Positions 536-53,890 of a DNA stretch of 64,000 nucleotides are shown in pieces. This DNA is from Halichondria panicea. Lineage: Eukaryota > Porifera > Demospongiae > Suberitida > Halichondriidae. The DNA lies in the NCBI RefSeq assembly GCF_963675165.1, contig NC_087382.1:2140567-2204566 (forward strand). Reading direction: 5' to 3'. Numbering within the stretch: the first letter of the stretch is position 1; every line of letters begins with the position of its first letter. A model generated the notes under the pieces. That model was not told the origin of the DNA. It searched no databases and saw only the letters and a program-made list of their open reading frames with translations. Both the position numbers and the translations under genes were made by a program.

Positions 536-1014
536 TTACTGTTTCACGACATCGATGACAGTGTGCGTGACTTTGGGTGCATTGTCAGCTGTAGCTTGAG
601 GAGGGGGAGGGACTGGTCTGTAGTCCTCTGTGGTGAGGGGGGCTAGTACGTCCAGGGCAGGCTTTTTCAGCTGGTCTGGCCTCGTGGCAGTTCGGATGAT
701 GGGAGGAGTGATGTAACGATCAGGGTCATCTTCTTCCATGGCTCCGTCAGTGTACGGATCACATCTGTCCGCGTTTGTCCAGGTTTCATTGTCCATTTCG
801 TGCCTTTCCAGTTTGCAAACTCGTGGAATCCTTTTTCTCAGTTTGAGTGAGTTTTGCAGAACAGGAACTTTCTTCAACATGTACTCGTAACAATGGTAGC
901 AAACTATCACCACAAACAAAATAAAAGCCACTGCCATTGAAATGTTTGATATTATGTCTTGATTCCCATTGATGCTTCCTATGTAGAGGGTACCATACGC
1001 TAGAATTGCAAGAT
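536..1014 (-). pseudogene. Beta-helix/multi-TM family copy 1, 3' stub only
   Basis: Only the end of the family protein remains. There is the last hydrophobic segment (ISMAVAFILFVVIVCYHCYE), the basic juxtamembrane stretch and the cytoplasmic tail with YITPPIIR and RPVPPPPQ, ending VIDVVKQ. Homology to copies 2-5 stops abruptly near 1014, in the codons for the preceding membrane segment (NLAILAYGTLYIG). There the sequence switches to a T-rich joint and then to a piece of CRT exon 5. The surviving part is still open, so the truncation looks young. Without signal peptide and ectodomain it cannot make the family protein. Confidence 0.85.
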
Positions 1015-1044
1015 TTTTTTTCTCTACATCTAAGTCAACAGAGC

Positions 1045-1308
1045 TCCCAGGGGGGTCACCAGTTAGTATGTGGGGGGGGCAGGGGGATTTGGTGGGAGGT
1101 GTAATTCTACAATATTAGCATAAACTACACATTCCATGCAATGATAACCTGCACTATAGCAAGGTAAGCCGCTCCCTCTGCGTATCGAATGAGTAGACCT
1201 CCTCCCAGGTACGAGACCACATACATGGCAATGAAGGCCACACCCCTCAATCCTGGCACATAGTTACAACCACCTCCACCAAAGAAACACTGAATAGCAA
1301 ACCAATAG
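1045..1308 (-). pseudogene. Orphan copy of CRT-like exon 4 and the start of exon 5
   Basis: Positions 1149-1308 repeat exon 4 of the CRT-like transporter at 56532-56691 with the same 160-nt length and an open frame (YWFAIQCFF, NYVPGLRGVAFIAMYVVSY, LLIRYAEGAAYLAIVQ). Its acceptor (TTACAG) and donor (GTTATC) are intact. Around 1045-1080 the first codons of exon 5 (LVTPLGAL) follow and run into a stop at the junction with copy 1. No other CRT exons accompany it in order, so it is a duplicated fragment. Confidence 0.85.
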
Positions 1309-1936: not shown

Positions 1937-2002
1937 TATTAATTTTAAAAAACTTTTTTCTAATAAGTTAAATGTTGCACACAGCGAGAGAGTTAGCTAA
2001 AA

Positions 2003-3469: not shown

Positions 3470-3470
<1 letters not shown>

Positions 3471-3548: not shown

Positions 3549-6504
3549 CCTAGAGTGTCACTGCACTGGCTGCAAGGACACTACCTACTGCACTGTACAG
3601 GATGGTGCTTGCTTCACATCATCAACTGTGAGAGCTCACACACACAATAATGTTGTGTACACTGTTTATACAACAACGTGTGTTTATAGTTCATTGTGTG
3701 TGCATGTGTGTTGTGCAAATACTTATTATATATCTCAACATTTTGACAGGTTTCCAATCATTTAATTATGGGTTGTCTGCCTGCGAGTCTAGCATCACTA
3801 ATGTGCGACCAATCAGATTCAAGCGTTCAGTGTTGCCATAACAACCATTGTAACCTAGTCGGAAGTGCTGGAAATCAACGATTCTTAAGAAATGAAGGTA
3901 ATGAAGATCAAAGAAGATTATGAAGATCAAAGAAGATTATGAATATCATTCAATTCTCGAGTAATATTTATTGAGTCTTTATTCTTAAGGAATGCTTGCA
4001 TGACACCACCAAAGCGAGCCAGACAGATTGGGGGGCCCCTTGTGTAATTAAAGGGCCCTCCCCCTAATTACTTATAATTATACAACTATTTTATTGTATG
4101 TCCCGCCCACACACACACACACACACACACACGTACAGAAGAAGCCACTGAAATGCCTGACAACGCTATTCTATTGGGTGTTGTAATTGGGGTGGTTGTC
4201 GTAGGTACTATTGTAATTGCATCTCTAGTAGTGGCCGCCCTCTGTTGTATCTTATACCGGAGGCAGAAAAGAAAGACACAACATCCTGTTTCCACCATTG
4301 AAGCCACACCCACTCCCGAGGTCCGCTGCACGGCACACACTAACAACAACTGTCGTGCCATTCTTCCACAGAGTAAGTCAACTGCATCATTATAATTATT
4401 ATAACGTCCGATTTCAAACTGTTTGGTGCTTAGATCAGTGATGATTAATATCCCTCCTTTGGCTGTGCAGGTGAGAGTATAGGATCACTCATAAAGGCGG
4501 CCATGTTTTATGGTGATCCCTTGTCACCGCTTGTCCAACGCTCTATAGCACAACAGACAATGCTAGAGAAGTACCTGACAAAGGGAGGATTTAGTAGTCG
4601 ATATATTGGGCGATGGCGTGAGGACAGAGTGGCTGTGACCGTGTTCTCTGTCAAGCATCAACACTTCTGGACTAATGAGTCTACCATACTGCAGGTTAGT
4701 AGCAGTGTGAGTCTACCATACTGCAGGTTAGTAGCAGTGTGAGTCTACCATACTGCAGGTTAGTAGCAGTGTGAGTCTACCATACTGCAGGTTAGTAGCA
4801 GTGTGAGTCTACCATACTGCAGGTTAGTAGCAGTGTGTAGCTAGTAGCCTGGTTAGGGCATGGAATGCATGGTGATCATAACCATGGTTACAGGTATGCA
4901 TGGTGATCATAACCATGGTTACAGGTATGCTTACGTATACAGTCTAGAGATTCAGTAGCTATAGGTATATGTAGTTCTTAGAGTGTTTTAGCATAATTAC
5001 TCGTGAAGTTTTATGATGGGTTTGAAATCCATTGCTTTTGACCAAAGCAGAGACCCAAATGTGCTAGCTGTTGCCCACCCCTACACTTGCAATCACACAC
5101 CACCCACACCACACCACCCACACACACACACACGAGCAGCTTCCACTGATGAGACATGACAGTATATTGAGCTTCATTGCTGCAGACACTGTATTCAAGA
5201 AATCAGTTAACCACCTCTACCTCATTAGTGAGTATCATCGTAGGGAGACCCTCAGGGAGCACCTCGTTAAGAGCACACTGGAGGTATCAGAGGCTCTGCT
5301 GTTGATCAGCTCTCTTGTGTCTGGAGTGGAGTACTTACACAGTGTGCTAGCTCAGGAGAGCAGAGGTGGGGTGGTGGTGAAGCCATCCATTGAACACTGC
5401 AACCTAACCAGTCAAAATGTCTACGTGGACAAGTCAGGTGATCTATAATTGTAGCTATGTGCATTTTTTGTGCTTGAATAATATCCTTCAAATTCATTGG
5501 GGAAGCTATGTGCATTTTATATGCTTATTCATTAATGATCTTTACCCAACACTTTTTTCTTCTCCGTCTTCTGCAGGTTCATGTTGTCTGAGTGACTTTG
5601 CCTTGTCAGTAACTCAGAGTGGGTGTGTCAGTGGGTGTGGTCACACTGCCCACTCAGACATAAGATACCGCCCACCAGAAGCATTAGCCGCTACCACTAC
5701 TGACGCTGGGTTCGAGGGTTTAAAGAGTGGAGACGTGTACTCCCTCGGACTCATACTCTGGGAGGTGGCCAATTGCTGCCTAGTCCAAGGTGAGGGGGAC
5801 GCTCTGTGAATATAGGAAAACTGTATCCCACTCTCTCCCCGCTAAAATTACATTTGTGGATTATTTATTGTATTTTGTGCAGGTGAGGACAGTGTGTACT
5901 CTCTACTGTACTCTGACCTCTTGGACTCTGAAGCCACACCTACTAGAGACAATATGATGAGAATAGTTTGTGAGGAGGGAAAGAGACCGCCTCTACCAGA
6001 GCAATGCTCTAGAGATGAGGTGATCAATTATATTAAGTTCAGATATTTCTGTATATATAGCGTTCGTTTTGGTATAGCTATCTTTGAGAGCCCGTAATTT
6101 GTGTTCAGATTGTCCAATGTCAAAACTAAATGACGTATTCAATAGCTCTCAGAATTATCTTTCCAATGGTGTGCTTAGATACAAGTTCTGTGATTGGTAA
6201 ATTTAACAAAAGGGAATTTAAGGCTAGCTATTTCTAGAGCTAGAGTTTACAGCGTTTGATTTAACATTTAACGACATTTCGTTTAGCTCTATACAATGTC
6301 CCCCCACATACTCACGCCCACACACCACAGAACACACGACTGGTTCTGGCCACCATTGACGAGTCCTGGAGCTCCTCTCCCTCGCAAAGACCAACCACAC
6401 AACAACTCAAGGAGACACTGCAAACATCGCTATTGCCAGCCATTAAATGGCAAGTATCAGTTGACAAGAATGGACAAACAGTGTATAAGCAAATGACTTC
6501 CTAG
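3548..6504 (+). CDS. TGF-beta type I receptor-like pseudokinase (5' exon not found)
   Basis: Exons I can join with matching phase: 3548-3627, 3750-3897, 4139-4372, 4471-4694, 5140-5437, 5577-5789, 5883-6019 and 6331-6504, about 501 codons to a TAG. Exons 1-2 encode an activin-receptor-type cysteine domain (LECHCTGCKDTTYC, DGACF, then VQCCHNNHCN). Exon 3 encodes one TM helix (AILLGVVIGVVVVGTIVIAS) and a basic stop-transfer. The kinase domain begins PLSPLVQRSIAQQT, matching the type I receptor PLLVQRTIARQ, but there is no SGSGSG GS box. The catalytic features are gone: the Gly loop reads TKGGFSSR, VAVK is VAVT, the helix-C Glu is replaced (NESTILQ), HRDLKSKN is HCNLTSQN and DLG is DFA. The structural motifs RYRPPEAL and GDVYSLGLILWE remain. 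It probably binds ligand or co-receptors without phosphorylating Smads. The signal-peptide exon upstream of 3471 is unresolved. Confidence 0.88.
4677..4836 (+). repeat. 32-bp tandem repeat containing the 5' splice site, x 5
   Basis: The unit GAGTCTACCATACTGCAG/GTTAGTAGCAGTGT spans the end of receptor exon 4471-4694 and its donor. It is repeated five times, placing identical CAG/GTTAGT donors at 4695, 4727, 4759, 4791 and 4823. Only the first joins to the next exon in frame without a stop; reading on meets a TGA at 4740. Confidence 0.95.
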
Positions 6505-7034: not shown

Positions 7035-7268
7035 TTACTCTTTCACGACATCGATGACAGTGTGCGTGACTTCGAGTGTATTGTTTTGAGGAGGGGGAGG
7101 GGCTGGTCTGTAGTCCTCTGTGGTGAGGGGGGTTAGTACGTCCAGGGCAGGCTCTCTCAGCTGGTCTGGCCTCGTGGCAGGTCGGATGATGGGAGGAGTG
7201 ATGTAACGATCAGGGTCATCTTCTTCCATGGCTCCGTCAGTGTACGGATCACATCTGTCCGCGTTTGT

Positions 7269-10200
7269 TCAGGTTTCTTTGTTCTCCATTTCGTACCTTT
7301 CCAGTTTGCGAACTCGTGGAATCCTTTTTCTCAGTTTGAGTGAGTTTTGCAGAACAGGAACTTTCTTCAACATGTACTCGTAACAATGGTAGCAAACTAT
7401 CACCACAAACAAAATAAAAGCCACTGCCATTGAAATGTTGGATATTATGACTTGACTCTCATTGATGTTTCCTATGTAGAGGGTGCCATACGCTAGAATT
7501 GCAAGATTGAGGAAAAAGAGTGTTTCCAGTAAATCATTGAATCGTATTTTGTACACTGGATAATTCTGCGATTTGAAAACAATCAGTCCAACAGTTATAG
7601 ATCCAGCTGATAGTACAGGGAGAGAAGTGTCCAAAGCCAAGGCTGTTATTAGATTATGAGCAATCAAAGAAAATAGGAGCAGTCCCACCCAGTAGCGATG
7701 CTTGGGAGTGAATGGAGCATGGTATGCATCCATGAAACCAATGTAGTATGTGTTCTTAGTCCATTTCGTGAGTTTCCATTTTGAACAGCGAGGAAGCCAT
7801 TGTCCAAAGAAGAGCAGTACAGTGAACAATATACCAGAAATGAGGATTATGGCGGCAAAAATAAACCGAGGGACATGACCGGGAGTGAAATATTGCACAT
7901 TGCCGTCATACAACCAAACTATATCACTTGAATTGTTGGGAAAATCCAATACCTTGGTTGCACCATCAGGATAATCCAAGACCCTGTATTGCAGTGCAGC
8001 AATGATAAACCGTAAGAGTTTGGAATAAGAGAGTAGGACGAGTGTGCCTAGGGCAGCAACTGGGTTCCTGTTGGAGAGGAGCTTTGCAAATGAGTCAAAG
8101 TACTTGCTTAAAATGATTATTAAGAACATCAGAAGAAACAGGTAAGCGGGAAAGACAATCTGAAGGAGCACTTTTGCTTGAGAGTTCATTCTATCATAAA
8201 AGCATGTCTCAATACCTAAGTCAAGATTCACCCACGATATGAAAACTGTCAAAGGGTTATGAAAAGGTACGAAAATCGACTGATTTGCAGCTAATACATT
8301 AGTGTAGAAGATCAGCCCATGGATAGTGCCTGTTGCTACGGTAATGTTGAAAACGAGAATGAATGCGACTAGTACTATGCCTGCCAGGGCAAACGGGAGT
8401 AGCAGGAGAAGGTAAGTGTTTGAGCAGAGTTCACATCGTGAAGTACCTAACACAAGACTCAGTCCTGGTTCACATTCTCCACACAAGACACCACTTCGAT
8501 TGTGGGCACATTGTTCGTCAGGGTTGCTTAGACTGATGTTGACTGGTTTTAGTACACAATAGTCAAATGTACAGTTACTAACAACATACCCACTTCCGTT
8601 AGTAGTATTAGTCACTCCTATCCATATGTTGTTATTGCTTTCCAATTTTATGGTCCCATTTTCCTCAGAGCAGTTTGTTATCTGATATTCTTGTTGCAAG
8701 ACTGGATCACAGTCACACTTGCACTCAATTGAGGACATGATTGGCCTGAGTCCAATAGGGCATTCACACTTTAGAAAAGATATGTTTAGAATTTGTCTTG
8801 AAATTCCCAAATTGTTGCATGGACCATCAGCATAGAGTTCCACTTGAGCAGAGCTGTCTTGTGAGAATACATTATACTCTAATTCTGTGCACTGATTGCC
8901 AACTTCTTGCTGTGCTTGTCCTTCTTTAAGACGATCAACTCTACTGCTCTCAGTGATAACAGAACTGTGAATTATGGCATTATTCATTGGATTTCCAGCT
9001 TGGTCTACAGCCATAACACTTATTGTGAATGCTTGTCCTTTTCTAACAGAAATGGTCTGCTTGGTGGTGTTACACAACTTCACTCTGACAGCCTTTGAAG
9101 CTATCCATGAATAATGCACAGTATTGTTCAAGTACTCAAATCCATTGTCTGATGAAGAGAGTTCGGCTGATACATCCACCGTACACCTGTCCAAAAGACC
9201 TCCGTAAATATCTGCTCCTGACTGGGAAGCTGTGTTGTTTGTCAAAAAAGTGTTGCGATGATTAATTGATGTACTGTTCAAACACTTAACTTCTTCTTCA
9301 TATGAATTAGACTGGGAAGATTTGACAAAAGGTATCAAAGTCTCAACAAAATTGATATCAAAACCATAGAGATCTAGAGTTTGAATGAAGCATTCTGTTT
9401 GTGTCAGATCTCCTGCAGTAGTTACATCCTCTCCTCTACACACACCACTCTCAGTACTGTCTGCCACAAATATCCCCCCTCCATATTGAGCCGTGTTATT
9501 GTGGATTTCTAGTATGACTAGCATTTTACCAATCTCTAGCTCCAAGTCCTGTTTCAAAATATAGATCTTGGAACTTTGTTGTAGATACACTCCACCTCCG
9601 CTATTGTTTACTGAGTTTGACTTGATTTGGACGTGAGCGTGAGAAAAAGCCTTAATGTTTGAAGCGACTGCATAAATACCTCCTCCATTTTGAGCATCAT
9701 TTCGATCTATAATACTCACAAACAGTACAGGTTCTATGTCACTACATGTACACAGGACAAAGTTATTATTAAATATACAACCAGTAGTGACCTTCGAATC
9801 AAATTCAATTTCGCTTGAGTATGCATAAATCCCACCACCATTTTGTGCTGTGTTGTGAGAAATCTCTATTGGATAGTGAACAAAGAGTGTGCTCTCTCTC
9901 AGAAACACACCTCCTCCAACAGTAGCAGTATTGTTAGAAATGACCACTCCTTCTGCATTGATATAGACTTGACTCTGGATTGCTCTGATGGCTCCACCCT
10001 GCACACCACGGTTGTTACTGAGAGTTGTGGGTCCATTGAACTCCACTCGACTGCTTAGAGCATACACAGGGTTGACATTATTGCTAACGTTGTTAACTCC
10101 CGTAAATGACAAGTTAGAATGCACTGCGTAAATGATATTTTCACCCTCTAAATTGTCAAATATGCTTGTATTAGTAATTATCAAAGTTGAGATAGCAACC

Positions 10201-11903
10201 GCAATCACTCCATCTTGTTGAGTGGCTCTGTTGTTTGTGAGCACAGAGTCAGAAATGTTCACAGTGCCACCAGCAACAAAAAACACTCCACCAAAGTCAG
10301 CACTGTTATTTTTAAACATGACTTTGGAGATGGATATATTTCCAGTATATACCAAAATCGCTCCACCAAGACTAGTTCCTCCATTACCAAATACAGCTAT
10401 ACTGTCACTATCAACTACAGCTTCATTGTCCGTTATATTACAGCTCATGATAGATGCATTAACTATGAAAAGTCCAATCGCTCCACCAGAGGCTGCCTTG
10501 TTGTTTGTTAGCTCGCTATCAGATATCAGTAACTCTCCAGTCAAAACCGAAATCGCTCCATCTGATCTTTCAGCACTGTTGTACGCTAGCTCACTGTCGG
10601 AGATTGAGAAATTCCCAAACTGGATATTAATTGCTCCACCGTCAAAAATAGCACTATTGTTCAGTAGTGCACAATTGTATATGGTCAAATTACTTCCAAA
10701 TGTGAAAATTGCTCCACCTAATCCTTCAGCACTGTTGTACGCTAGCTCACTGTCGGAGATTGAGACACTCCCATTCTGGCTATAAATTGCTCCACCGCTA
10801 TCGATAGCACTATTGTTCAGTAGTGCACAGTTGGAAATGAACAAATTACTTTCGGAGGTTAAAATTGCTCCACCGTCAATGATAGCACTATTGTTTAGTA
10901 GCGTACAGTTGGAAATGAACAAATTACTTTCGGAGGTTAAAATTGCTCCACCATATTCAGCACTGTTGTACGCTAGCTCACTGTCAGAGATTGAGACACT
11001 CCCATCCTCACTATAAATTGCTCCACCGCTATCGATAGCACTATTGTACGCTAGCTCACTGTCGGAGATTGAGACACTCCCATCCTGGCTATAAATTGCT
11101 CCACCATCAAGGATAGCACTATTGTTTAGTAGCGCACAGTTGTATATGGTCAAATTACTTTCGGAGGTACTAATCGCTCCACCATTATGATAAGCGCTAT
11201 TATTTGTAAAGTTGCTCCAACTGATAGTCACACTTGCAGAGACCACAAACACTGCTCCACCATATGCAGCAGTATTGGAATCGAACCTTGAACCATTAAT
11301 AACAGTTTGATTTGATTTAATCTTCACTGCACCACCATCGTTACTGAAGAAGTCACTCTTTTCAATGTACACAGTATCAGCCTCAACAACACGTAATGCT
11401 CTGTCAATGCCAGTGTTGTTCACAAAGAGAACTTGTTCAATCGTCACAGTTACCGTACGAGTGATCCAGAGTGTACAAGCTTCCAACTTTAGCAATTTCA
11501 AGTCTACCAAATAGCATTGAGAAATGTTCATGTAGCCTGAACTACTTTCATCACCTGCTCCAGTGAAATGCAAACCTTCGATACTCAATGCACTGATATT
11601 AGATAACTGCACTCTACCAGAACTGTTCAAACTGATGGTGGCATTTTGGCCAGCAATAATCACCTCTCTGAAATTATAGATATAAAGCATTTCACGTAAT
11701 ATATGATCTCCAGGTAGAAAGCTCAAGGAGAGATTGTCTCCACCAGATAACAGGGCTGTTTGAACAAGCTGCTCGAGAGTGAAACAAGTTCCATTTCGAT
11801 AGTCATTACACAAGTCGGTTAAATCCACTGGCACGATGTGATAGTGCTCACTCCTGGTAACAGTAGCTAGGGTCAGTAGCAGCACCAACCAGGTGCAGTG
11901 CAT
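7269..11903 (-). CDS. Beta-helix/multi-TM surface protein, copy 2 (tail cut by TGA)
   Basis: This intronless gene of ~1544 codons starts at ATG 11903, giving the signal peptide MHCTWLVLLLTLATVTRS as in all copies; an in-frame ATG at 11936 only adds 11 residues. Residues ~40-700 form a right-handed beta-helix array of 20-25-residue steps with GGAI plus NNSA/NCALLNN or SISDSELAYNSA, resembling Chlamydia Pmp repeats. Then come a Cys-rich stalk (CECPIG, ECKCDCDP, RSGVLCGECEPG), about eight membrane segments starting YLLLLLPFALAGIVLVAF, and a tail. The conserved Trp codon after ENKET is TGA here (7269-7271). The rest of the tail stays open in the same frame down to 7035 (YITPPIIRPATRP, PPPPQ). This copy has the most repeat steps. 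Ligand and function are unknown; a surface receptor or adhesin is likely. Confidence 0.85.
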   Translation of the reverse strand: MHCTWLVLLLTLATVTRSEHYHIVPVDLTDLCNDYRNGTCFTLEQLVQTALLSGGDNLSLSFLPGDHILREMLYIYNFREVIIAGQNATISLNSSGRVQLSNISALSIEGLHFTGAGDESSSGYMNISQCYLVDLKLLKLEACTLWITRTVTVTIEQVLFVNNTGIDRALRVVEADTVYIEKSDFFSNDGGAVKIKSNQTVINGSRFDSNTAAYGGAVFVVSASVTISWSNFTNNSAYHNGGAISTSESNLTIYNCALLNNSAILDGGAIYSQDGSVSISDSELAYNSAIDSGGAIYSEDGSVSISDSELAYNSAEYGGAILTSESNLFISNCTLLNNSAIIDGGAILTSESNLFISNCALLNNSAIDSGGAIYSQNGSVSISDSELAYNSAEGLGGAIFTFGSNLTIYNCALLNNSAIFDGGAINIQFGNFSISDSELAYNSAERSDGAISVLTGELLISDSELTNNKAASGGAIGLFIVNASIMSCNITDNEAVVDSDSIAVFGNGGTSLGGAILVYTGNISISKVMFKNNSADFGGVFFVAGGTVNISDSVLTNNRATQQDGVIAVAISTLIITNTSIFDNLEGENIIYAVHSNLSFTGVNNVSNNVNPVYALSSRVEFNGPTTLSNNRGVQGGAIRAIQSQVYINAEGVVISNNTATVGGGVFLRESTLFVHYPIEISHNTAQNGGGIYAYSSEIEFDSKVTTGCIFNNNFVLCTCSDIEPVLFVSIIDRNDAQNGGGIYAVASNIKAFSHAHVQIKSNSVNNSGGGVYLQQSSKIYILKQDLELEIGKMLVILEIHNNTAQYGGGIFVADSTESGVCRGEDVTTAGDLTQTECFIQTLDLYGFDINFVETLIPFVKSSQSNSYEEEVKCLNSTSINHRNTFLTNNTASQSGADIYGGLLDRCTVDVSAELSSSDNGFEYLNNTVHYSWIASKAVRVKLCNTTKQTISVRKGQAFTISVMAVDQAGNPMNNAIIHSSVITESSRVDRLKEGQAQQEVGNQCTELEYNVFSQDSSAQVELYADGPCNNLGISRQILNISFLKCECPIGLRPIMSSIECKCDCDPVLQQEYQITNCSEENGTIKLESNNNIWIGVTNTTNGSGYVVSNCTFDYCVLKPVNISLSNPDEQCAHNRSGVLCGECEPGLSLVLGTSRCELCSNTYLLLLLPFALAGIVLVAFILVFNITVATGTIHGLIFYTNVLAANQSIFVPFHNPLTVFISWVNLDLGIETCFYDRMNSQAKVLLQIVFPAYLFLLMFLIIILSKYFDSFAKLLSNRNPVAALGTLVLLSYSKLLRFIIAALQYRVLDYPDGATKVLDFPNNSSDIVWLYDGNVQYFTPGHVPRFIFAAIILISGILFTVLLFFGQWLPRCSKWKLTKWTKNTYYIGFMDAYHAPFTPKHRYWVGLLLFSLIAHNLITALALDTSLPVLSAGSITVGLIVFKSQNYPVYKIRFNDLLETLFFLNLAILAYGTLYIGNINESQVIISNISMAVAFILFVVIVCYHCYEYMLKKVPVLQNSLKLRKRIPRVRKLERYEMENKET

Positions 11904-17445: not shown

Positions 17446-20400
17446 TCATTCGTTAATGCTACTCTTTATGACATCGATGACAGTGTGCGTGACTTTGGGT
17501 GCATTGTCAGCTGTAGCTTGAGGAGGGGGAGGGGCTGGTCTGTAGTCCTCTGTGGTGAGGGGGGCTAGCACGTCCAGGGCAGGCTCTCTCAGCTGGTCTG
17601 GCCTCGTGGCTGGTCTGATGATGGGAGGAGTGATGTAACGATCAGGGTCATCTTCTTCCATGGCTCCATCAGTGTACGGATCACATCTGCCCGCGTTTGT
17701 CCAGGTTTCTTTGTTCTCCATTTCGTACCTTTCCAGTTTGCGAACTCGTGGAATCATTTTTCTCAGTTTGAGTGCATTTTGCAGAACAGGAACTGTTTTC
17801 AAAATGTACTCGTAACAATGGTAGCAGACTATCACCACCAACAAAATAAAAGCCACTGCCATTGAAATGTTGGATATTATGACTTGACTCTCATTGATGT
17901 TTCCTATGTAGAGGGTGCCATACGCTAGAATTGCAAGATTGAGGAAAAAGAGTGTTTCCAGTAAATCATTGAATCGTATTTTGTACACTGGATAATTCTG
18001 CGATTTGAAAATATTAAGTCCAACAGTTATAGATCCAGCTGATAGTACGGGTAGAGATGTGTCCAAAGCCAAGGCTGTTATTAGATTATGAGCGATCAAA
18101 GAAAATAGGAGCAGTCCCACCCAGTAGCGATGCTTGGGAGTGAATGGAGCATGGTATGCATCCATGAAGCCATTGTAGTATGTGTTCTTAGTCCATTTCA
18201 TGAGCTTCCATTTTGAACAGCGAGGAAACCATTGTCCAAACAAGAGCACTACAGTGAACAATATACCAGAAATGAGGATTATGGCGGCAAAAACAAACCG
18301 AGGGACGTGACCGGGAGTGAAATATTGCACATTGCCGTCATACAACCAAACTATATCATTTGAATTGTTGGGAAAATCCAACACCTTGGTTGCACCCTCA
18401 GGATAATCCAAGACCCTGTATTGCAGTGCAGCAATGATAAACCGTAAGAGTTTGGAATAAGAGAGTAGGACGAGTGTGCCTAGGGCAGCAACTGGGTTTC
18501 TGTTGGAGAGGAGCTTTGCAAATGAGTCGGAGTACTTGCTTAAAATAATTATTAAGAACATCAGAAGAAACAGGTAAACAGGAAAGATCATTTGAAGGAG
18601 CACTTTTGCTTGAGAGTTCATTCTATCATAAAAGCATGTCTCAATACCTAAGTCAAGATTCACCCACGATATGAAAACTGTCAAAGGGTTATGAAAAGGT
18701 ATGAAAATCGATTGATTTGCAGCTAATATATTAGTGTAGAAGATCAGCCCATGGATAGTGCCTGTTGCTACGGTAATGTTGAAAACGAGAATGAATGCGA
18801 CTAGTACTATGCCTGCCAGGGCAAACGGGAGTAGCAGGAGAAGGTAAGTGTTTGAGCAGAGTTCACATCGTGAAGTACCTAACACAAGACTGAGTCCTGG
18901 TTCACATTCTCCACACAAAACACCACTTCGATTGTGGGCACATTGTTCGTCAGGGTTGCTTAGACTGATGTTGACTAGTTTTAGTACACAATAGTCAAAT
19001 GTACAGTTACTAACAACATACCCACTTCCGTTAGTAGTATTAGTCACTCCTATCCATATGTTGTTATTGCTTTCCAGCTTTATGGTCCCATTTTCCTCAG
19101 AACAGTTTGTTATCTGATATTCTTGTTGCAAGACTGGATCACAGTCACACTTGCACTCAATTGAGGACATGATTGGCTTGAGTCCAATAGGGCATTCACA
19201 CTTTAGAAAAGATATGTTTAGAATTTGTCTTGAAATTCCCAAATTGTTGCATGGACCCTCAGCATAGAGTTCCACTTGAGCAGAGCTGTCTTGTGAGAAT
19301 ACATTATACTCTAATTCTGTGCACTGATTGCCAACTTCTTGCTGTGCTTGTCCTTCTTTGAGACGATCAACTCTACTGCTCTCAGTGATAACAGAACTGT
19401 GAATTATGGCATTATTCATTGGATTTCCAGCTTGGTCTACAGCCATAATACTGATTGTGAATGCTTGTCCTTTTCTAACAGAAATGGTCTGCTTGGTGGT
19501 GTTACACAACTTCACTCTGACAGCCTTTGAAGCTATCCATGAATAATGCACAGTATTGTTCAAGTACTCAAATCCATTGTCTGATGAAGAGAGTTCGGCT
19601 GATACATCCACCGTACACCTGTCTAGTAGACCTCCGTAAATATCTGCTCCTGACTGGGAAGCTGTGTTGTTTGTCAAAAAGTGTTGCGATGATTAATTGC
19701 ACTGTTCAAACACTTAACTTCTTCATACGAGAATAAATCTTGGACCAAAGTCTTAATAAAATTGATATTAAGACCATGGAGATCCAGAGTTTGAATGAAG
19801 CATTCTGTTTGTGGCAGATCTCCTGCAGTAGTTACATCCTCTCCTCTACACACACCACTCTCAGTACTGTCTGCCACAAATATCCCCCCTCCATATTGAG
19901 CCGTGTTATTGTGGATTTCTAGCTTGACCAGTGTTTTACCAAGCTCTAGCTCCAAGTCCTGTTTCAGAATATAGATCTTAGAACTTTGTCATAAATAAAT
20001 TCCACCTCCGCTGTTGTTTGCTGAGTTTGACTGTATGTGGATGTGAGCGTGAGAAAAGGCCTTGATGTTTGAAGCAACTGCATAAATACCTCCCCCATTT
20101 TGAGCATCATTTCGATCTATAATACTCTCAAACAGTATATCTTCCACGTCACTACATGTACACAGGACAAAGTTATGATTAAATATACAACCATAAGCAG
20201 TAGTGACCTTCGAATCAAATTCAATTTCGCTTGAGTATGCATAAATCCCACCACCATTTCGTGCTGTGTTGTGAGAAATCTCTATGCGATAGTGAACAAA
20301 GAGTGTGCTCTCTCTCAGAAACACACCTCCTCCAAAGGTAGCAGTATTGTTAGAAATGACCACTCCTTCTGCATTGATATAGATTTGACTCTGGACTGCT

Positions 20401-34371: not shown

Positions 34372-37300
34372 TTACTGTTTCACGACATCGATGACAGTGT
34401 GCGTGACTTTGGGTGCATTGTCAGCTGTAGCTTGAGGAGGGGGAGGGGCTGGTCTGTAGTCCTCTGCGGTGAGGGGGGCTAGCACGTCCAGGGCAGGCTC
34501 TCTCAGCTGGTCTGGCCTCGTGGCAGGTCGGATGATGGGAGGAGTGATGTAACGATCAGGGTCAGCTTCTTCCATGGCTCCATCAGTGTACCGATCACAT
34601 CTGCCCGCGTTTGTCCAGGTTTCATTGTTCTCCATTTCGTACCTTTCCAGTTTGCGAACTCGTGGAATCCTTTTTCTCAGTTTGAGTGAGTTTTGCAGAA
34701 CAGGAACTTTCTTCAACATGTACTCGTAACAATGGTAGCAGACTATCACCACAAACAAAATAAAAGCCACTGCCATTGAAATGTTGGATATTATGACTTG
34801 ACTCTCATTGATATTTCCTATGTAGAGGGTGCCATACGCTAGAATTGCAAGATTGAGGAAAAAGAGTGTTTCCAGTAAATCATTGAATCGTATTTTGTAC
34901 ACTGGATAATTCTGCGATTTGAAAACAATCAGTCCAACAGTTATAGATCCAGCTGATAGTACGGGGAGAGAAGTGTCCAAAGCCAAAAAGGCTGTTATTA
35001 GGTTATGAGCGATCAAAGAAAATAGGAGCAGTCCCACCCAGTAGCGATGCTTGGGAGTGAATGGAGCATGGTATGCATCCATGAAGCCATTGTAGTATGT
35101 GTTCTTAGTCCATTTCATGAGCTTCCATTTTGAACAGCGAGGAAACCATTGTCCAAAGAAGAGCACTACAGTGAACAATATACCAGAAATGAGGATTATG
35201 GCGGCAAAAACAAACCGAGGGACGTGACCAGGAGTGAAATATTGCACATTGCCGTCATACAACCAAACTATATCATTTGAATTGTTGGGAAAATCCAATA
35301 CCTTGGTTGCACCCTCAGGATAGTCCAAGACCCTGTATTGCAGTGCAGCAATGATAAACCGCAAGAGTTTGGAATAAGAGAGTAGGACGAGTGTGCCTAG
35401 GGCAGCAACTGGGTTCCTGTTGGAAAGGAGCTTTGCAAATGAGTCAGAGTACTTGCTTAAAATGATTATTAAGAACATCAGAAGAAACAGGTAAGCAGGA
35501 AAGACCATTTGAAGGAGCACTTTTGCTTGAGAGTTCATTCTTTCATAAAAGCATGTCTCAATACCTAAGTCAAGATTCACCCACGATATGAAAACTGTCA
35601 AAGGGTTATGAAAAGGTATGAAGATCGACTGATTTGCAGCTAATATATTAGTGTAGAAGATCAGCCCATGGATAGTGCCTGTTGCTACAGTAATGTTGAA
35701 AACGAGAATGAATGCGACTAGTACTATGCCTGCCAGGGCAAACGGGAGTAGCAGGAGAAGGTGAGTGTTTGAGCAGAGTTCACATCGTGAAGTACCTAAC
35801 ACAAGACTGAGTCCTGGTTCACATTCTCCACACAAGACACCACTTCGATTGTAGGCACACTGTTCGTCAGGGTGGTTGCTTAGATTGATGTTGACTGGTT
35901 TTAGTACACAATAGTCAAATGTACAGTTACTAACAACATACCCATGCACTTCCGTTAGTGGTATTAGTCACTCCTATCCATATGTTGTTATTACTTTCCA
36001 ATTTTATGGTCTCATTTTCATCAGAACAGTTTGTTATCTGATATTCTTGTTGCAACACTGGATCACAGTCACACTTGCACTCAATTGAGGACATGATTGG
36101 TTGGAGTCCAATAGGGCATTCACACTTTTGAAAAGAGATGTTTAGAATTTGTCTTGAAATTCCCAAATTGTTGCATGGACCATCAGCATAGAGTTCCACT
36201 TGAGCAGAGCTGTCTTGTGAGAATACATTGTACTCTAATTCTGTGCACTGATTGCCAACTTCTTGTTGTGCTTGTCCTTCTTTGAGACGATCAACTCTAC
36301 TGCTCTCAGTTATAACAGAACTGTGAATTATGGCTTTATTCATTGGATTTCCAACTTGGTCTACAGCCATAACACTTATTGTGAATGCTTGTCCTTTTCT
36401 AACAGAAATGGTCTGGTTGGTGGTGCTACACAACTTCACTCTGACAGCCTTTGAAGCTATTGATGAATAATGCACAGTATTGTTCAAGTACTCAAATCCA
36501 TTGTCTGATGAAGAGAGTTCGGCTGATACATCCACCGTACACCTGTCCAAAAGACCTCCGTAAATATCTGCTCCTGACTGGGTAGCTGTGTTGTTTGTCA
36601 GAAAAGTGTTGCGATTATTGATTGCACTGTTCAAACATTTAACTTCTTCATTAAATCCAGTCATTAATAAAGAAAAGAAAGCTTGGATCAAAGGTATCAC
36701 ACCCTTAATAGAATTGTTATCAAAACCATAGAGATCTATAGTTTGAATGAAGCACTCTGTTTGTGGCAGATCTCCTGCAGTAGTTACATCCTCTCCTCTA
36801 CACACACCACTCTCAGTACTGTCTGCCACAAATATCCCCCCTCCATATTGAGCCGTGTTACTGTAGATTTCTAGTATGACCAGCGTTTTACCAAGCTCTA
36901 GCTCCACATCCTGTTTCAGAATATGTATCTTAGAACTTTGTCGTAAATAAATTCCACCTCCGCTATTGTTTGCTGAGTTTGACTTGATGTGGACGTGAGC
37001 GTGAGAAAAGGCCTTGATGTTTGAAGCGACTGCATAAATACCTCCTCCATTTTGAGCATCATTTCGATCTATAATACTCACAAACAGTACAGGTTCCATG
37101 TCACTACATGTACACAGGACAAACTGATGATTAAATATACAACCAGTAGTAACCTTCGAATCAAATTCAATTTCGCTTGAGTATGCATAAATCCCACCAC
37201 CATTTTGTGCTGTGTTGTGAGAAATCTCTATGGGATAGTGAACAAAGAGTGTGCTCTCTCTCAGAAACACACCTCCTCCAACAGTAGCAGTATTGTTAGA

Positions 37301-38920
37301 AATGACCACTCCTTCTGCATTGATATAGATTTGACTCTGGACTGCTCTGATGGCTCCACCCTGCACACCACGATTGTTACTGAGAGTTGTGGGTCCATTG
37401 AACTCCACTCGACTGCTTAGAGCATACACAGGGTTTACATTATTGCTAACGGTGTTAACTCCCGTAAATGACAAGTTAGAATGCACTACGTAAATGATAT
37501 TTTCACCCTCAAAATTGTCAAATATGCTTGTATTAGTAATTATCAAAGTTGCGATAGCAACCGCAATCACTCCATCTTGTTGGGTGGCTCTGTTGTTTGT
37601 GAGCAGAGAGTCGAAAATGATCACAGTGCCATTAGCAACAAAAAACACTGCACCAGCGTCAGCACTGTTATTTTTAAACATGACTTTGGAGACAGATATA
37701 GTTCCAGTATATACCAAAATCGCTCCACCAAGACTAGTTCCTCCATTACCAACTACAGCTTCATTGTCCGTTATATTACAGCTCATGATAGATGCATTAC
37801 CCATGAAAAGTGCAATCGCTCCACCATTTTCAGCACTGTTGTACGCTAGCTCACTGTCAGAGATTGAGACACTCCCTTCCTGGCTAAAAATTGCTCCACC
37901 ATGAACGATAGCACTATTGTTTAGTAGCGTACAGTTGTATATGGACAAATTACTTTCGAAGGTGTAAATCGCTCCACCATATTCAGCACTGTTGTACACT
38001 AGCTCACTGTCGGAGATTGAGACACTCCCTTCCAGGCTAATAATTGCTCCACCGATAACGATAGCACTATTGTACGCTAGCTCACTGTCGGAGATTGAGA
38101 CACTCCCTTCCTGGCTAAAAATTGCTCCACCGATAACGATAGCACTATTGTTTAGTAGCGCACAGTTGTATATGGACAAATTACTTTCGGAGGTACTAAT
38201 CGCTCCACCAATATAATAAGCAATATTATTTGTAAAGTTGCTCCAACTGATAGTCACATTTGCAGAGACCACAAACACTGCTCCACCATATGTAGTACCA
38301 GTATTAAAATTGAACCTTGAACCATTAATAACAGTTTGACTTGATTCAATGTTCACTGCACCGCCATCGTTACGTAAGAAGTCACTCTTTTCAATGTACA
38401 CAGTATCAGCCTTAACAATCAATGCTCTGTAAGTGTTCACAAAGAGAACTTGTTCAATCGTCACAGTTACCGTACGAGTGATCCAGAGTGTACAAGCTTC
38501 CAACTTTAGCAATTTCAAGTCTACCAAATAGCATTGAGAAATGTACATATAGCCTGAACTACTTTCATCACCTGCTCCAGTGAAATGCAAACCTTCAATA
38601 CTCAATGCACTGATATTAGATAACTGCACTCTACCAGAATTGTTCAAACTGATAGTGGCATTTTGGCCAGCAATAATCACCTCTCTGAAATTACAAATGT
38701 AAAGCATTTCACTTAATAAATGATCTCCAGGTAGAAAGCTCAAGGTGAGATTGTCTCCACCAGATAACAGGGCTGTTTGAACAAGCTGCTCGAGAGTGAA
38801 ACAAGTTCCATTTCGATAGTTATTACACAAGTCGGTTGAATCCACTGGCACAATGTGATAGTGCTCACTCCTGGTAACAGTAGCTAGGGTCAGTAGCAGC
38901 ACCAACCAGGTGCAGTGCAT
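34372..38920 (-). pseudogene. Beta-helix/multi-TM copy 5 (split by a 4-nt insertion)
   Basis: The N-terminal 990 codons run from the signal peptide MHCTWLVLLL at 38920 through the beta-helix and into the Cys-rich stalk. In the NTTNGSGYVVSN stretch, four extra bases (TGCA, near 35944) shift the frame and the first part ends at 35930. The second part is open from there through the stalk, all membrane segments and the tail to VIDVVKQ (34372). Two in-frame 3-nt insertions (SNHPDEQ; AFLALD) are tolerated. If translated as is, the product would be a secreted ectodomain without an anchor. The beta-helix carries its own combination of SISDSELAYNSA and NCALLNNSA steps. Confidence 0.85.
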
Positions 38921-41877: not shown

Positions 41878-42633
<756 letters not shown>

Positions 42634-43061
42634 CTGGAATTTAAGACGGAAATAAAACGAGTCCAAACAATGTGAGAACATTACTATGATTATTTTAGTG
42701 TAGTGCTTGTGTGTGCAGTATTCAATTACTACATGTTTATGCACTCTTTATCTTTTCCTGTACACACCGTGATCATACATGCACGTACATGCTGCATGTA
42801 CGTGCATGTGAATTATAGTGATCGAGCTCAGTTCTGAGAAACTTGTTTATGGTGGTCACAGTTGGGCAGACCGACAGGTGGCTGTAATAAAGATGTGGCT
42901 TGTTTGCTTGCACGGGTAGAAACATAATTATGCTAGGGAGATTTGAAGCTAATTGGTGTGGCTAGATCACAGACAGTCCTCATTAGACAGTGCACTGAGT
43001 CACTGACAAAGCATGCATATGTGGTGTAGGCTTAGCTTCCTCTGTGTGTGCTTAGCTTCCT

Positions 43062-43974: not shown

Positions 43975-44011
<37 letters not shown>

Positions 44012-46065: not shown

Positions 46066-46670
46066 ATAGCACAGTGGGGCCACACTATAGGCTCTGTACA
46101 CTAGCTACAGTGCACACAGTGGGGCCACACTATAGGCTCTGTACACTAGCTACAGTGCACACAGTGGGGCCACACTATAGGCTCTGTACACTAGCTACAG
46201 TGCACACAGTGGGGCCACACTATAGGCTCTGTACACTAGCTACAGTGCACACAGTGGGGCCACACTATAGGCTCTGTACACTAGCTACAGTGCACACAGT
46301 GGGACCACACTATAGGCTCTGTACACTAGCTACAGTGCACACAGTGGGACCACACTATAGGCTCTGTACACTAGCTACAGTGCACACAGTGGGACCACAC
46401 TATAGGCTCTGTACACTAGCTACAGTGTACACAGTGGGACCACACTCTAGGCTCTGTACACTAGCTACAGTGCACACAGTGGGACCACACTGTAGGCTCT
46501 GTACACTAGCTACAGTGCACACAGTGGGACCACACTATAGGCTCTGCATGTACACTATAGATCTAGCTACAGTGTGCACAGTGGGACCACACTATAGGCT
46601 CTGCGTGTACACTAGATCTAGCTACAGTGTGCACAGTGGGACCACACTATAGGCTCTGTACACTAGTCTA
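46066..46670. repeat. Minisatellite, 45-bp unit x ~13
   Basis: The unit is CACACAGTGGGGCCACACTA-TAGGCTCTGTACACTAGCTA-CAGTG. The first five units have GGGGCC and later ones GGGACC; the last three add ATGT/GATCTA. Because 45 is a multiple of three, a 217-codon frame stays open, but it is not a gene. A single unit is found in the CRT intron at 57284-57325. Confidence 0.97.
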
Positions 46671-46794
46671 CACACTGCAGATCAATTAGCCTAGCATTTC
46701 CATCTGCTTTTTGTTTTAAAATGTGAGTTGAAGGATTGTAAATAAAAGCGTTCTTTACAATACGATAATATTTACAGACTTTACAGTATTGTAC

Positions 46795-47269: not shown

Positions 47270-50200
47270 TTAGACTTTATTATGTATGGGACCAATTTCT
47301 GTGCATGTAACAGCAGGACGGTGGTTGACTCTTGTAGGGGGAGGGGCTGGTCTGTAGTCCTCTGTGGTGAGGGGGGCTAGTTCATCCATGTAGGATAGTC
47401 TCAGCTGGTCCGGCCTCGTGGCAGGTCTGATGATGGGAGGAGTGATGTAACGATCAGGGTCAGCTTCTTCCATGGCTCCATCAGTGTACGGTGGGTTCAA
47501 GGCGTCTCTTTGTTCATAGTCGTCTACTACTTCAAGTAATTCATCATCATCATTTGCATTGACTACTGGCTGATACATTTCTCGACCATTGTTAGCTCGT
47601 CTGTCTGCAACATCAACTCCTAAATTCCTTACAATGTCTTCTATCTTCAGCCATGTATTGGTCTTCTTGAGTACGAATTGATAAAAATGGTAAGAGAGTG
47701 TTATTGCAAAGATGATAAAGGATATAGTCATCGAAGTATTGGCTAGTGCTGACTGATCTTTCCTGCTATCTTTGACATAAGAGGTACCAAATGCTAGACA
47801 AACAATATTGAGTAGATACAAAGTTTCGAGGGAATCACGGAATTTGTTTTTGTACAAACGATTATTCAGTAATTTCCAGCTGATTAGTCCAACAGACAGA
47901 ACCCCAGCTGATAGTACGGGTAGAGAATTGTCCAAAGCCAAGGCAGTTATTAGATTATGAGTGATCAGAGTCAAAAGGAGCAGTCCCACCCAGTAGCGAT
48001 GCTTGGGAGTGAATGGAGCATGGTATGCATCCATGAAGCCATTGTAGTATGTGTTTTTAGTCCATTTCATGAGTTTCCATTTTGAACAGAGAGGAAGCCA
48101 TTGTCCAAAGAAGAGCACTACAGTGAACAATATACCAGAAATGAGGATTATGGCGGCAAAAACAAACCGAGGGACGTGACCAGAAGTGAAATATTGCACA
48201 TTGCCGTCATACATCCAAACTATATCACTTGAATTGTTGGGAAAATCCAATACCTTGGTTGCACCATCAGGATAATCCAAGACCCTGTATTGCAGTGCAG
48301 CAATGATAAACCGTAAGAGTTTGGAATAAGAGAGTAGGACGAGTGTGCCTAGGGCAGCAACTGGGTTCCTGTTGGAGAGGAGCTTTGCAAATGAGTCAAA
48401 GTACTTGCTCAAAATGATTATTAAAGGGAAGGTACCATGAAAAAATAAAGTTTTATTTTTTTGCCTTAAAATGTTCTTTGTGGGGTATAAAATAGCCCTG
48501 AGACAAAAAAATATTTTTCTGAAAATTAACTTTTCAGAGAAACAGGACTGTAAAAACACAATTTCTGGCTTAAAATTTTGCTTCCTGTTGTGGTCAAATG
48601 TGGGCGCGGTCAAACGTGACGTCAGAGTAGGCATTTGTGCTGCATGTAAAATGTATTCTGTGTGTGTTGAGTGTGTTGCAGCTGGTTGCTCCTTTACATC
48701 TAGCAGTCATACAGTTCTCTCAGTTGAAATATGAGTGGGAAAAACAAGTCCTATGTACCAGAGCTCACTGAAAAGCAACAGAATCCTGTTTTTGTGTACA
48801 GTGAAAACTCACAGATATGACCTCCCTTGCTGCTCAGTTTGGGATCCAAAAGAGGAAGAAGCTGAGATCTGAGGTCTGGAGCCATTCTAACTGTTTTCTA
48901 TAAGGCAGTTATTCAGAAATAAACTGCCATATCGTCCTGTAAAGAGAGACGGCCCTGAGATCAGAGTCATGGAATGGAGAGATAGCCCTATAGAGAAGTG
49001 CCCGGTCGGCCGCTGTATACGGAAAAGCGAGAACGGAGACAGGTTAATAGCTTCTGTTTTTGTTCAATCATGTATAATTATAATACCTCGCTGCAGTTGA
49101 TACTTGATGCTTTACAAGAGACAACCTCTCTATACCGTGACTCCTGCATGTAGACCCGGCATGCAACTGAGACTCCTGATCAGACTACATATGCATGCAG
49201 TACCTCTCTTCCTATTTTCATGTTGGAAACAACTTCAGCAAGGGTCTCATTGTCATGCAAAGACAAGTGAAACCAAAACTTGACGTGTTAATAATGTAAA
49301 GATTACCGATAGTAACTCAAACCCCATCTAAATTATAAATTATAACTACCAAGGATGTCGATATTTAGTGTGAAGTGCTTGGACTCATGCATGGTGACTC
49401 TCCCCCTGTTGTCAAATCCCATACAACCTAATTTTGAGCCCAGCATCTTCTTCTCCTAAACGTTTGTCGCGACATTGACAAAAACGTAACTTTTAAATTG
49501 TCTCAAGAGTAATACACGTAATACAGGTTGAGTCAATAATCCTGCATGTGAAGAAGAAGGAAATTTGTTACGAATCGCAGCTATACTGCATGCACAGCTT
49601 GGTAGAACAACTCGTATAATTATATGTCTTCCAAGCCAGCCCCAGCACAACCGACTAGTTAAGAAAGTTATACCTTTCGCACTGATAAACTTACTGGTGT
49701 ATACTTCATTCTCATCTGCCTCACCATATCTGTGTTTGTGGGCAGTGTACGCTATCTGTAGCACCCACATATCAAGGATCAAATCCATCACACTGATTCT
49801 CTATTGGTATATACATTTCTACACAACGTACTACCGCATGCATTCACACCTGACACACTCAATTGCATGACTGTATACTTATACATATAGACCTAGTCTA
49901 TATACTAATTAGTCAATTAACATTTCCTATCCTGCCTTCATTGTCACCATCATCATCACCACTCGAACTAGCATGGGAAGGCTTTCTCGCTCATACAGAT
50001 ATGGCTCCACAGCGCTTGTTTTATCTTCACTGCAGCTTCTTTCATGCTCAACAGATGAGAAGGAGTAGGAAAAACTCAACTGGCTTGAAAATCATAGCTA
50101 AAATCACATGTGTCTGTCAGTCAGACTCATGCAGCCACCAGTATGCATCAATTCAATGTTTACTAGTACCTACTCTGACGTCACGTTTGACCGCGCCCAC

Positions 50201-53200
50201 ATTTGACCTCAACAGGAAGTAAAATTTTAAGCCTTTCTTAACAATCCTGTTCCTCAGAAACTTTAATTTTAAAAAAAATTTTTTTGCATCAAGGTTATTT
50301 TATATCTCACAAAGAACATTTTAAGGCAAAAAAATAATACTTTATTTTTTCATGGTACCTTCCCTTTAAAAACATCAGAAGAAACAGGTAAGCAGGAAAG
50401 ACCATCTGAAGGAGCACTTTTGCTTGAGAGTTCATTCCATCATAAAAGCATGTCTCAATACCCAAGTCAAGATTCACCCACGATATGAAAACTGACAAGG
50501 GGTTATGAAAAGGTATGAAGATCGACTGATTTGCAGCTAATATATTCGTGTAGAAGATCAGCCCATGGATAGTGCCTGTTGCTACGGTAATGTTGAAAAC
50601 GAGAATGAATGCAACTAGTACTATGCCTGCCAGGGAAAACGGGAGTAGCAGGAGAAGGTAAGTGTTTGAGCAGAGTTCACATCGTGAAGTACCTAACACA
50701 AGACTCAGTCCTGGTTCACATTTTCCACACAAGACACCACTTCGATTGTAGGCACACTGTTCATCAGGGTTGCTTAGACTGATGTTGACTGGTTTTAGTA
50801 CACAATAGTCAAATGTACAGTTACTAACAACATACCCACTTCCGTTAGTGGTATTAGTCACTCCTATCCATATGTTGTTATTGCTTTCCAATTTTATGGT
50901 CCCATTTTCCTCAGAACAGTTTGTTATCTGATATTTTTGTTGCAAGACTGGATCACAGTCACACTTGCACTCAATTGAGGACATTATTGGCTTGAGTCCA
51001 ATAGGGCATTCACACTTTAGAAAAGATATGTTTAGAATTTGTTTTGAAATTCCCAAATTGTTGCATGGACCATCAGCATAGAGTTCCACTTGAGCAGAGC
51101 TGTCTTGTGAGAATACATTGTACTCTAATTCTGTGCACTGATTGCCAACTTCTTGCTGTGCTTGTCCTTCTTTGAGACGATCAACTCTACTGCTCTCAGT
51201 GATAACAGAACTGTGAATTGTGGCATTATTCATTGGATTTCCAGCTTGGTCTACAGCCATAACACTGATTGTGAATGCTTGTCCTTTTCTAACAGAAATG
51301 GCCTGCTTGGTGGTGTTACACAACTTCACTCTGACAGCCTTTGAAGCTATCCATGAATAATGCACAGTATTGTTCAAGTACTCAAATCCATTGTCTGATG
51401 AAGAGAGTTCGGCTGATACATCCACCGTACACCTGTCTAGTAGACCTCCGTAAATATCTGCTCCTGACTGGGTAGCTGTGTTGTTTGTCAAAAAAGTGTT
51501 GCGATTATTGATTGCACTGTTCAAACATTTAACTTCTTTATTAAATCCAGTCATTAATGAAGACAAGAAAGCTTCGACCAATTGTACCAAAGTCTTAATA
51601 AAATTGATATCAAGACCATAGAGATCCAGAGTTTGAATGAAGCATTCTGTTTGTGTCAGATCTCGTGCAGTACTTACATCCTCTCCTCTACACACACCAC
51701 TCTCAGTACTGTCTGCCACAAATATCCCCCCTCCATATCGAGCCGTATTATTGTGAATTTCTAATATGACCAGCGTTTTACCAAGCTCTAGCTCCAAGTC
51801 CTGTTTCAGAATATAGATCTTAGAACTTTGTTGTAGATACACTCCACCTCCGCTATTGTTTGCTGAGTTTGACTTGATTTGGACGTGAGCGTGAGAAAAA
51901 GTCTTAATGTTTGAAGCGACTGCATAAATACCTCCTCCATTTTGAGCGTCATTTCGATCTATAATACTCTCAAACAGTACAGTCTCCATGTCACTACATG
52001 TACACAGGACAAAGTTATTATTAAATATACAACCAGTAGTGACCTTCGAATCAAATTCAATTTCGCTTGAGTATGCATAAATCCCACCACCATTTTGTGC
52101 AGTGTTGTGAGAAATCTCTATGCAATAGTGAACAAAGAGTGTGCTCTCTCTCAGAAACACACCTCCACCAAAGGTAGCAGTATTGTTAGAAATGACCACT
52201 CCTTCTGCATTGATATAGATTTGACTCTGGACTGCTCTGATGGCTCCACCCTGCACACCACGATTGCTACTGAGAGTTGTGGGTCCATTGAACTCCACTC
52301 GACTGCTTAGAGCATACACAGGGTTTACATTATTGCTAACGTTGTTAACTCCCGTCAATGACAAGTTAGAATGCACTGCGTAAATGATATTTTCACCCTC
52401 TAAATTGTCAAATATGCTTGTATTAGTAATTATCAAAGTTGATATAGCAACCGCAATCACTCCATCTTGTTGAGTGGCTCTGTTGTTTGTGAGCACAGAG
52501 TCGGAAATGATCACAGTGCCATCAGCAACAAAAAACACTCCACCAAATTCAGCACTGTTATTTTTAAACATGACTTTGGAGATGGATATAGTTCCAGTAT
52601 ATACCAAAATTGCTCCACCAGAGCTAGTTTCTCCATTATCAACTACAGCTTCATTGTCCGTTATATTACAGCTCATGATAGATGCATTAACTCTGAAAAG
52701 TGCAATCGCTCCACCAGAGGCTGCCTTGTTGTTTGTTAGCTTGCTATCGGATATTAGTAACTCTTCACTCAAAATCGAAATCGCTCCACCTGCTCTCTCA
52801 GCACTGTTGTATGCTAGCTCACTGTCGTAGATTGAGACACTCCCAACATACTGGCTAAAAATTGCTCCACCGTCAAGGATAGCACTATTGTTCAGTAGTA
52901 GACAGTTGGAAATGAACAAATTACTTTCGGAGGTAAAAATTGCTCCACCGTCAATGATAGCACTGTTGTACGATAGCTCACTGTCAGAGATTGAGACACT
53001 CCTAGCACCCTGGCTACGAATTGCTCCACCGACGATAGCACTATTGTTCAGTAGTGCACAGTTGTATATGAACAAGTTACTTCTGAAGGTGAAAATTGCT
53101 CCACCATATTTAGCAATATTATCCATAAAGTTACAGAAACTTATTGAAACATTAATTGCCGAAGTACCAATTGCTCCACCATTATAATAAGCGCCATTAT

Positions 53201-53890
53201 TTGTAAAGTTGCACCAACTGATAGTCACACTTGCAGAGATCACCTCCACTGCTCCACCATATGTAGTACCAGTATTAAAATTGAACCTTGAACCATTAAT
53301 AACAGTTTGACTTGATTCAATGTTCACTGCACCGCCATCGTTACGTAAGAAGTCACTCTTTTCAATGTACACAGTATCAGCCTTAACAATCAATGCTCTG
53401 TAAGTGTTCACAAAGAGAACTTGTTCAATCGTCACAGTTACCGTACGAGTGATCCAGAGTGTACAAGCTTCCAACTTTAGCAATTTCAAGTCTACCAAAT
53501 AGCATTGAGAAATGTACATATAGCCTGAACTACTTTCATCACTTGCTCCAGTGAAATGCAAACCTTCAATACTCAATGCACTGATATTAGATAACAGCAC
53601 TCTACCAGTTTTGTTAAACTGATAGTGTCATTTTGGCCAGCAATAATCACCTCTGTGAAATTACAAATGTAAAGCATTTCACGTAATATATGATCTCCAG
53701 GTAGAAAGCTCAAGGTGAGATTGTCTCCACCAGACAACAGGGCTGTTTGAACAAGCTGCTCGAGAGTGAAACAAGTTCCATTTTGATAGTCATGACACAA
53801 GTCGGTTGAATCCACTGGCACAATGTGATAGTGCTCACTCCTGGTAACAGTAGCTAGGGTCAGTAGCAGCACCAACCAGGTGCAGTGCAT
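47270..53890 (-). pseudogene. Beta-helix/multi-TM copy 6 (frameshift, transposon, mosaic end)
   Basis: The gene starts at 53890 with the family signal peptide. A 1-nt loss near 53613 shifts the frame after GQNDTISL, and the remainder is open from 53600. The ectodomain, stalk and first membrane segments run to YLFLLMFL at 50370. There a 1941-bp element (48425-50365) is inserted; the frame resumes with IIILSKYFDSF on the other side. Beyond LALDNSLPVLSAG the coding sequence (47500-47930) is unlike all other copies (LSVGLISWKLLNNRLYKNKF, then SMTISFIIFAITLSYHFYQF) but fills the same membrane-topology slots. It returns to the family tail at YTDGAMEEADPDRYITPPII. The N-terminus resembles copy 4 (CHDYQNGTC) and the next block copy 5 (FVNTYRALIVKADTVY). 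Confidence 0.88.
48425..50365. mobile_element. 1.94-kb TIR element with TTAA duplication, in copy 6
   Basis: The ends AGGGAAGGTACCATGAAAAA and its inverse are flanked by TTAA on both sides (48421-48424, 50366-50369). Other gene copies show the single TTAA (GATTATTAAGAACATC). The inverted arms are ~205-210 nt, reaching the shared GGGCGCGGTCAAACGTGACG. No transposase is seen in the 1.5-kb centre, so this is a non-autonomous or decayed element of piggyBac-like target choice. Confidence 0.88.

Follow-up and report, generated by a model that had tools for sequence, protein, structure and literature searches.

The window, by which we mean the whole stretch of 64,000 bases analysed here (C6:2140567-2204566 of the breadcrumb sponge Halichondria panicea, a demosponge), contains an array of related genes for a large multi-pass surface protein. 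When copy 4 was used as tblastn query, six related places were obtained, all on one strand (minus) and with coordinates near those given, as had been proposed from an inspection of the bare letters (the sequence-only reading). Compared with copy 4, DNA identity was 90.0-95.1% for copies 2-6 and 90.4% for the fragment of copy 1. The sequence-only reading had also assigned a whole protein to every copy. This did not hold, as only one of the six (copy 4) was fully open and the other five were cut, shifted, split or fragmentary (Table 1). The claimed absence of introns was borne out by copy 4, which is a single frame from signal peptide to tail; the exons of a nearby kinase gene lie in separate pieces. 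The array in the window represents a tandem expansion of local extent, most of whose copies are now decayed.

Different lesions were observed in the individual copies. In copy 2 a TGA codon at 7269-7271 removes the tail, and homology to the tail continues beyond this codon. The open frame at the 3′ end of copy 5 (P0152, 525 aa) also occurs in a record for a contig 658,297 bases long, indicating that the lesion of copy 5 is present in a second record. The insert in copy 6 carries inverted ends of 101 nt that are 91% complementary, and judged by its sequence it looks like a DNA transposon; we take its TTAA flanks and inverted ends to recall piggyBac elements.

Table 1. Position, strand and basis of assignment of features in the window
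Feature	Position	Strand	Basis
Copy 1, fragment, last 160 residues only	536..1015	-	tblastn, alignment to copy 4
Copy 2, open from signal peptide through membrane module	7035..11903	-	open frame, tblastn
Copy 3, in-frame TGA at 19989-19991, net one-base shift near 19677	17446..21911	-	alignment
Copy 4, complete open frame, 1462 aa, signal peptide to tail	27141..31529	-	open reading frame, tblastn
Copy 4, beta-helix ectodomain, Chlam_PMP type, residues 19-690	29460..31475	-	PF02415 match; boundaries approximate, set by analyst
Copy 4, Cys-rich stalk, residues 691-996	28542..29459	-	weak DUF7630 match
Copy 4, multi-pass membrane module, residues 997-1350	27480..28541	-	hydropathy; structure model
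Copy 4, putative cytosolic tail, residues 1351-1462, proline-rich end	27144..27479	-	sequence; cytosolic side inferred from charges
Copy 4, LREPAL tail motif	27258-27275	-	motif count in relatives
Copy 5, frame shifted by 4-base insertion at residue 941, near 35930-35967	34372..38920	-	alignment
Copy 6, one base lost at residue 92, near 53615; split by insert	47270..53890	-	alignment
Insert within copy 6, 1941 bases, long inverted ends, TTAA each side	48425..50365	.	sequence
TGF-beta-receptor-like kinase exons, convergent with copy 2	5176..6444	+	best PDB match TGF-beta receptor type-1, E 3.3e-8
CRT-like transporter exon (-) and ENTH-domain (epsin-like) gene (+), beyond the array	within 58005-61714	-/+	

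The last exon of the kinase gene was complete at four places in the window, beside copies 2-5 (near 16041, 26199 and 33429 for copies 3-5), and partial at three more (near 1578, 39441 and 44869). At loci of the family outside the window it was complete in L002, L003, L007, L010 and L012 and partial in L006 and L015, while it was not found in the short flanks examined of the other 18. The pairing of a kinase remnant with a surface-protein gene recurs at other loci on contig C6. More than the last exon was present at one window place only, so the kinase remnants have probably been carried along with the tandem unit, in which they lie convergent with the surface-protein genes. A stretch of about 1.7 kb without long open frames was found as a head-to-tail duplicate at 41310-44695, its two halves being 93-95% identical. 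Long tandem-repeat arrays occurred at 46070-46672, 55548-56180 and 62231-63998, and the final 2 kb of the window had a GC content of 0.616, compared with about 0.41 in the array.

Architecture of the encoded protein

The order of parts that had been read from the letters, i.e. a signal peptide, Chlam_PMP repeats, a Cys-rich stalk, hydrophobic segments and a proline-rich tail, was recovered in full. PF02415 (Chlam_PMP) was matched above the curated cut-off by copy 4 (E 1.6e-9) and by copy 2 (E 7.8e-23), Beta_helix PF13229 was matched by relatives, and a profile built from 44 relatives matched Rhombotarget A in the PDB at E 2.1e-4. Copy 2 has more helix steps than copy 4; by a rough count GGAI-type motifs numbered 20 and 14, respectively, and 10-22 across 23 open paralogs. 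The copies also differed in step number, as likewise proposed earlier. Insertions that preserve the frame, measuring 72-81, 159-162 and 234 bases and lying at copy-4 residues 233-291, correspond to units of close to 26 residues. N-glycosylation sequons of copy 4 were concentrated in residues 1-1002 (31 of 38). The stalk gave a weak match to DUF7630 at residues 966-997, which at E 0.018 fails the curated cut-off.

Chlamydial Pmp proteins belong to the autotransporters and carry a C-terminal beta-barrel of the outer membrane. The sponge proteins share with them repeats of the GGAI/FxxN type forming a beta-helix, the multicopy family and the match to PF02415. Unlike the Pmp proteins, they finish in a multi-pass module and a tail, their C-terminal part was modelled as an alpha-helical bundle, and no autotransporter family was among the Pfam matches listed for copies 2 and 4.

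The model of the copy-4 membrane module (pLDDT 87.7, pTM 0.87) contained eight long helices of 24, 28, 24, 25, 18, 20, 27 and 30 residues, with shorter helices lying between the first and the second. Loop charges and sequons place the tail inside, and counting back from it calls for one additional crossing, located between long helices 1 and 2, so that the module probably crosses the membrane nine times. A signal peptide, a long ectodomain, a multi-pass module and a cytosolic tail are also shared with adhesion GPCRs and with the GPCR-TK proteins of sponges and choanoflagellates, which according to the available part of PMC12716839 combine a large ectodomain with a seven-pass module. In contrast to these, the module described here has eight long helices in the model and probably nine crossings, and its tail has no kinase. 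GPCR rows in the Foldseek results against the PDB had a probability of 0.07 at most, and no GPCR was among the convincing PDB matches of the module model; the list from a VIA-align comparison did not discriminate against any family.

To which class the module belongs was approached by profile and fold comparison. For the module part of copy 4, DUF7630 and DUF6105, both below cut-off, were the only entries among the Pfam families listed, and scans of prokaryotes and of viruses, two each, yielded no relatives of the module. When the model was compared with viral models in Foldseek, ranks 1-3 were environmental proteins of Megaviridae (E 3.5e-3, 6.6e-3 and 0.05; probability 1.00, 1.00 and 0.94; TM-score on the query 0.53, 0.46 and 0.32). 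The first of these is named 'Transient receptor potential ion channel', which at E 3.5e-3 is a lead. Rank 4 had an E of 1.0, and one short later row had a probability of 0.69. These matches raise an alternative, that the genes encode a family of channels or transporters, perhaps akin to the fungal TRP-like proteins (Flc/Pkd2, PF06011), in which the beta-helix would act as a gate, force sensor or anchor and the copies would be largely redundant. Such proteins likewise have a multi-pass module after an extracellular domain, and the stronger constraint on the module than on the outer helix (see below) would suit a channel. However, neither the PDB nor the viral models yielded a match of the module at E 0.001 or better, PF06011 was absent among the best 25 of 32 and 25 of 44 Pfam families listed for members of the alignments A1 and A3, respectively, and the ectodomain differs from that of the fungal proteins; Flc1, according to the accessible part of PMC9600462, consists of ML-like and TRP domains. 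We regard a channel or transporter as the main alternative, though a doubtful one. A conserved single-function transporter, which the sequence-only reading had itself set against its proposal, is still a candidate, given the more constrained module and the channel name of its nearest fold match.

The tails were otherwise divergent, and the tripeptide REP was present in 129 of the 205 tails that could be read (7.3% in shuffles) and in 27 of 46 from the distant set (4.5% in shuffles). The stricter pattern REPx[LM] occurred in 95 of 158 tails and in 25 of 3160 shuffles; with a longer length cut-off applied, only one of nine distant tails contained it. All these counts derive from related sequences, which are hence not independent. 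The retention of LREPxL in many relatives suggests a putative binding site on the cytosolic side.

Size and spread of the family

To estimate the extent of the family, the assembly of 131,455,214 bases in 39 contigs was searched. Copy 4 gave at least 75 matching stretches in its own genome (32 of 598 candidates scored). Thirty loci were retained, five within the window and the 25 best-scoring ones outside it. Open frames could be read from signal peptide to tail in 21 of these 25, a share that is biased upward because the loci had been chosen by score; L009, L012, L013 and L015 were partial or broken. With DUF7630, a weak marker of the stalk, 150 of 349 candidates were scored, and at least 131 places, spread over 13 contigs, had an E of 0.1 or better. 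Only nine of the 131 reached the curated cut-off, and matches below it were obtained in two of 14 control genomes as well, indicating that some of the 131 places may be chance matches. Frames of at least 1000 aa contained 85 of the places and frames of less than 600 aa contained 22. Contig C6, which makes up 5.8% of the assembly, holds 65 of the 131. The figure of 131 is a lower bound of family size, and the family is concentrated on C6.

Relatives in protein databases numbered at least 878, 2096 and at least 1931 at E 0.001 in three overlapping searches, and the best 120 of each set were examined. Identity went down to 40-50% among the matches listed in the third set. Most of the matches listed carried no name; the named ones were H. 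panicea proteins called 'uncharacterized' and one called 'probable outer membrane protein PmpB', an automatic name. Of 271 proteins compared, 11 that are not encoded in the window agreed with loci of this genome letter for letter, save for the first residue. A single search recovered around two thousand database relatives of the membrane module, for which Pfam has no clear model. A description of the family was not found in the literature searched (mostly open-access, best-ranked papers), and the terms 'outer membrane', 'PMP' and 'beta helix' were absent from PMC8242945 and PMC11229196. We conclude that this is a genuine, large family with little previous description, of which the window locus represents a partly degraded segment. 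The sequence-only reading had proposed a candidate recognition locus in the window. Its components, i.e. surface location, a repeat ectodomain, a multi-pass module, variation in copy and step number and mosaicism, were all supported, but a special standing of the locus was not, as the family extends to 131 scored places on 13 contigs and the window covers one stretch of it, partly made up of pseudogenes.

Selective constraint and mosaicism among paralogs

Ratios of dN/dS were calculated by the Nei-Gojobori method for ten close and eleven far paralogs; L014 and L016 were in neither group. For close and far paralogs, respectively, the values were 0.67 and 0.50 in residues 1-230, 0.80 and 0.81 in residues 231-420, 0.45 and 0.45 in residues 421-690, 0.32 and 0.45 in the stalk, 0.42 and 0.27 in the membrane module and 0.59 and 0.44 in the tail. 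No region of either group had a mean dN/dS above 1, and purifying selection dominates. The outer helix evolves faster than the membrane module in both groups, a pattern that fits recognition or adhesion.

A largely neutral turnover by birth and death among redundant genes might also be considered, in which tandem copies decay and change in the ectodomain reflects relaxed constraint. The five broken or fragmentary copies among the six in the window would agree with it, as would mean dN/dS values below 1 in all regions. Against this stand the open frames of 21 of the 25 outside loci, with the upward bias noted above, and the confinement of fast change to the outer helix in both groups, the stalk and module being constrained. 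We consider a neutral origin of the pattern improbable.

Mosaicism, a further point of the sequence-only reading, was confirmed by two approaches. In a PHI-type test of the ten close paralogs (357 informative sites) the observed value was 0.360, compared with a permuted mean of 0.436 (sd 0.005), and none of 500 permutations was as low. Up to residue 1200, copy 6 was 90-99.7% identical to copies 2-5, with two exceptions (83-87% over residues 201-300, and 86% to copy 5 over 301-400). Identity to copies 2-5 fell to 84-85% over 1201-1300 and to 58-59% over 1301-1400, where copy 6 was 89-90% identical to L010 and L011. As read from the alignment, copy 6 is a mosaic whose C-terminal part comes from another subfamily, with the switch inside residues 1201-1300. 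Copy 4 and L002 were 99.7-100% identical over residues 1001-1400 and 93.3-98.0% before, a jump that fits recent gene conversion.

Candidate role and comparison with known systems

Sponges distinguish self from non-self and sort microbes; to our knowledge, the receptors involved are poorly known. The genes described here probably encode a large intronless family of multi-pass surface proteins that bind ligands, cells or microbes via the beta-helix, with adhesion or recognition as the likeliest function. The repeat-built helix would make the contact with ligands, other cells or microbes, the membrane module and the tail with its REP motif would anchor the protein or relay a signal inward, and unequal exchange together with gene conversion may create ectodomain variants and spread them. 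A more specific form of this proposal, which we put forward tentatively and think rather unlikely, is that these are diversified recognition receptors of sponges built on Pmp-like beta-helices and not on Ig or LRR repeats. Specificity would then reside in the number and sequence of the helix steps, be reshuffled by unequal exchange or gene conversion and be read out via the module and the REP tail. A large, clustered and mosaic family with a fast helix on a constrained module offers a concrete candidate set for sponge receptors.

Strict allorecognition would go further, requiring that individuals differ at these genes and that matching decides between fusion and rejection. Like known allorecognition loci, the genes are clustered, recombining and variable surface genes; they are mosaic and vary in step number. 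Grafting of Amphimedon, as presented in the available portion of PMC5450542, has been used to argue for a polymorphic genetic basis of recognition in sponges. However, that portion contains no mention of such genes ('outer membrane' and 'helix' each occur zero times), and one copy compared across two contigs, which may come from one individual, was identical in 1445 of 1446 residues. Judged from the gene sequences, a strict allorecognition role appears quite unlikely. The broader role in adhesion or recognition sets the genes beside the SRCR and NLR families of sponges. The domains differ, as no SRCR, NACHT or LRR was among the Pfam matches listed for copies 2 and 4; shared with those families, as described in the accessible parts of PMC4772301, PMC12909245 and PMC10855680, are a lineage-specific expansion and a partly clustered arrangement.
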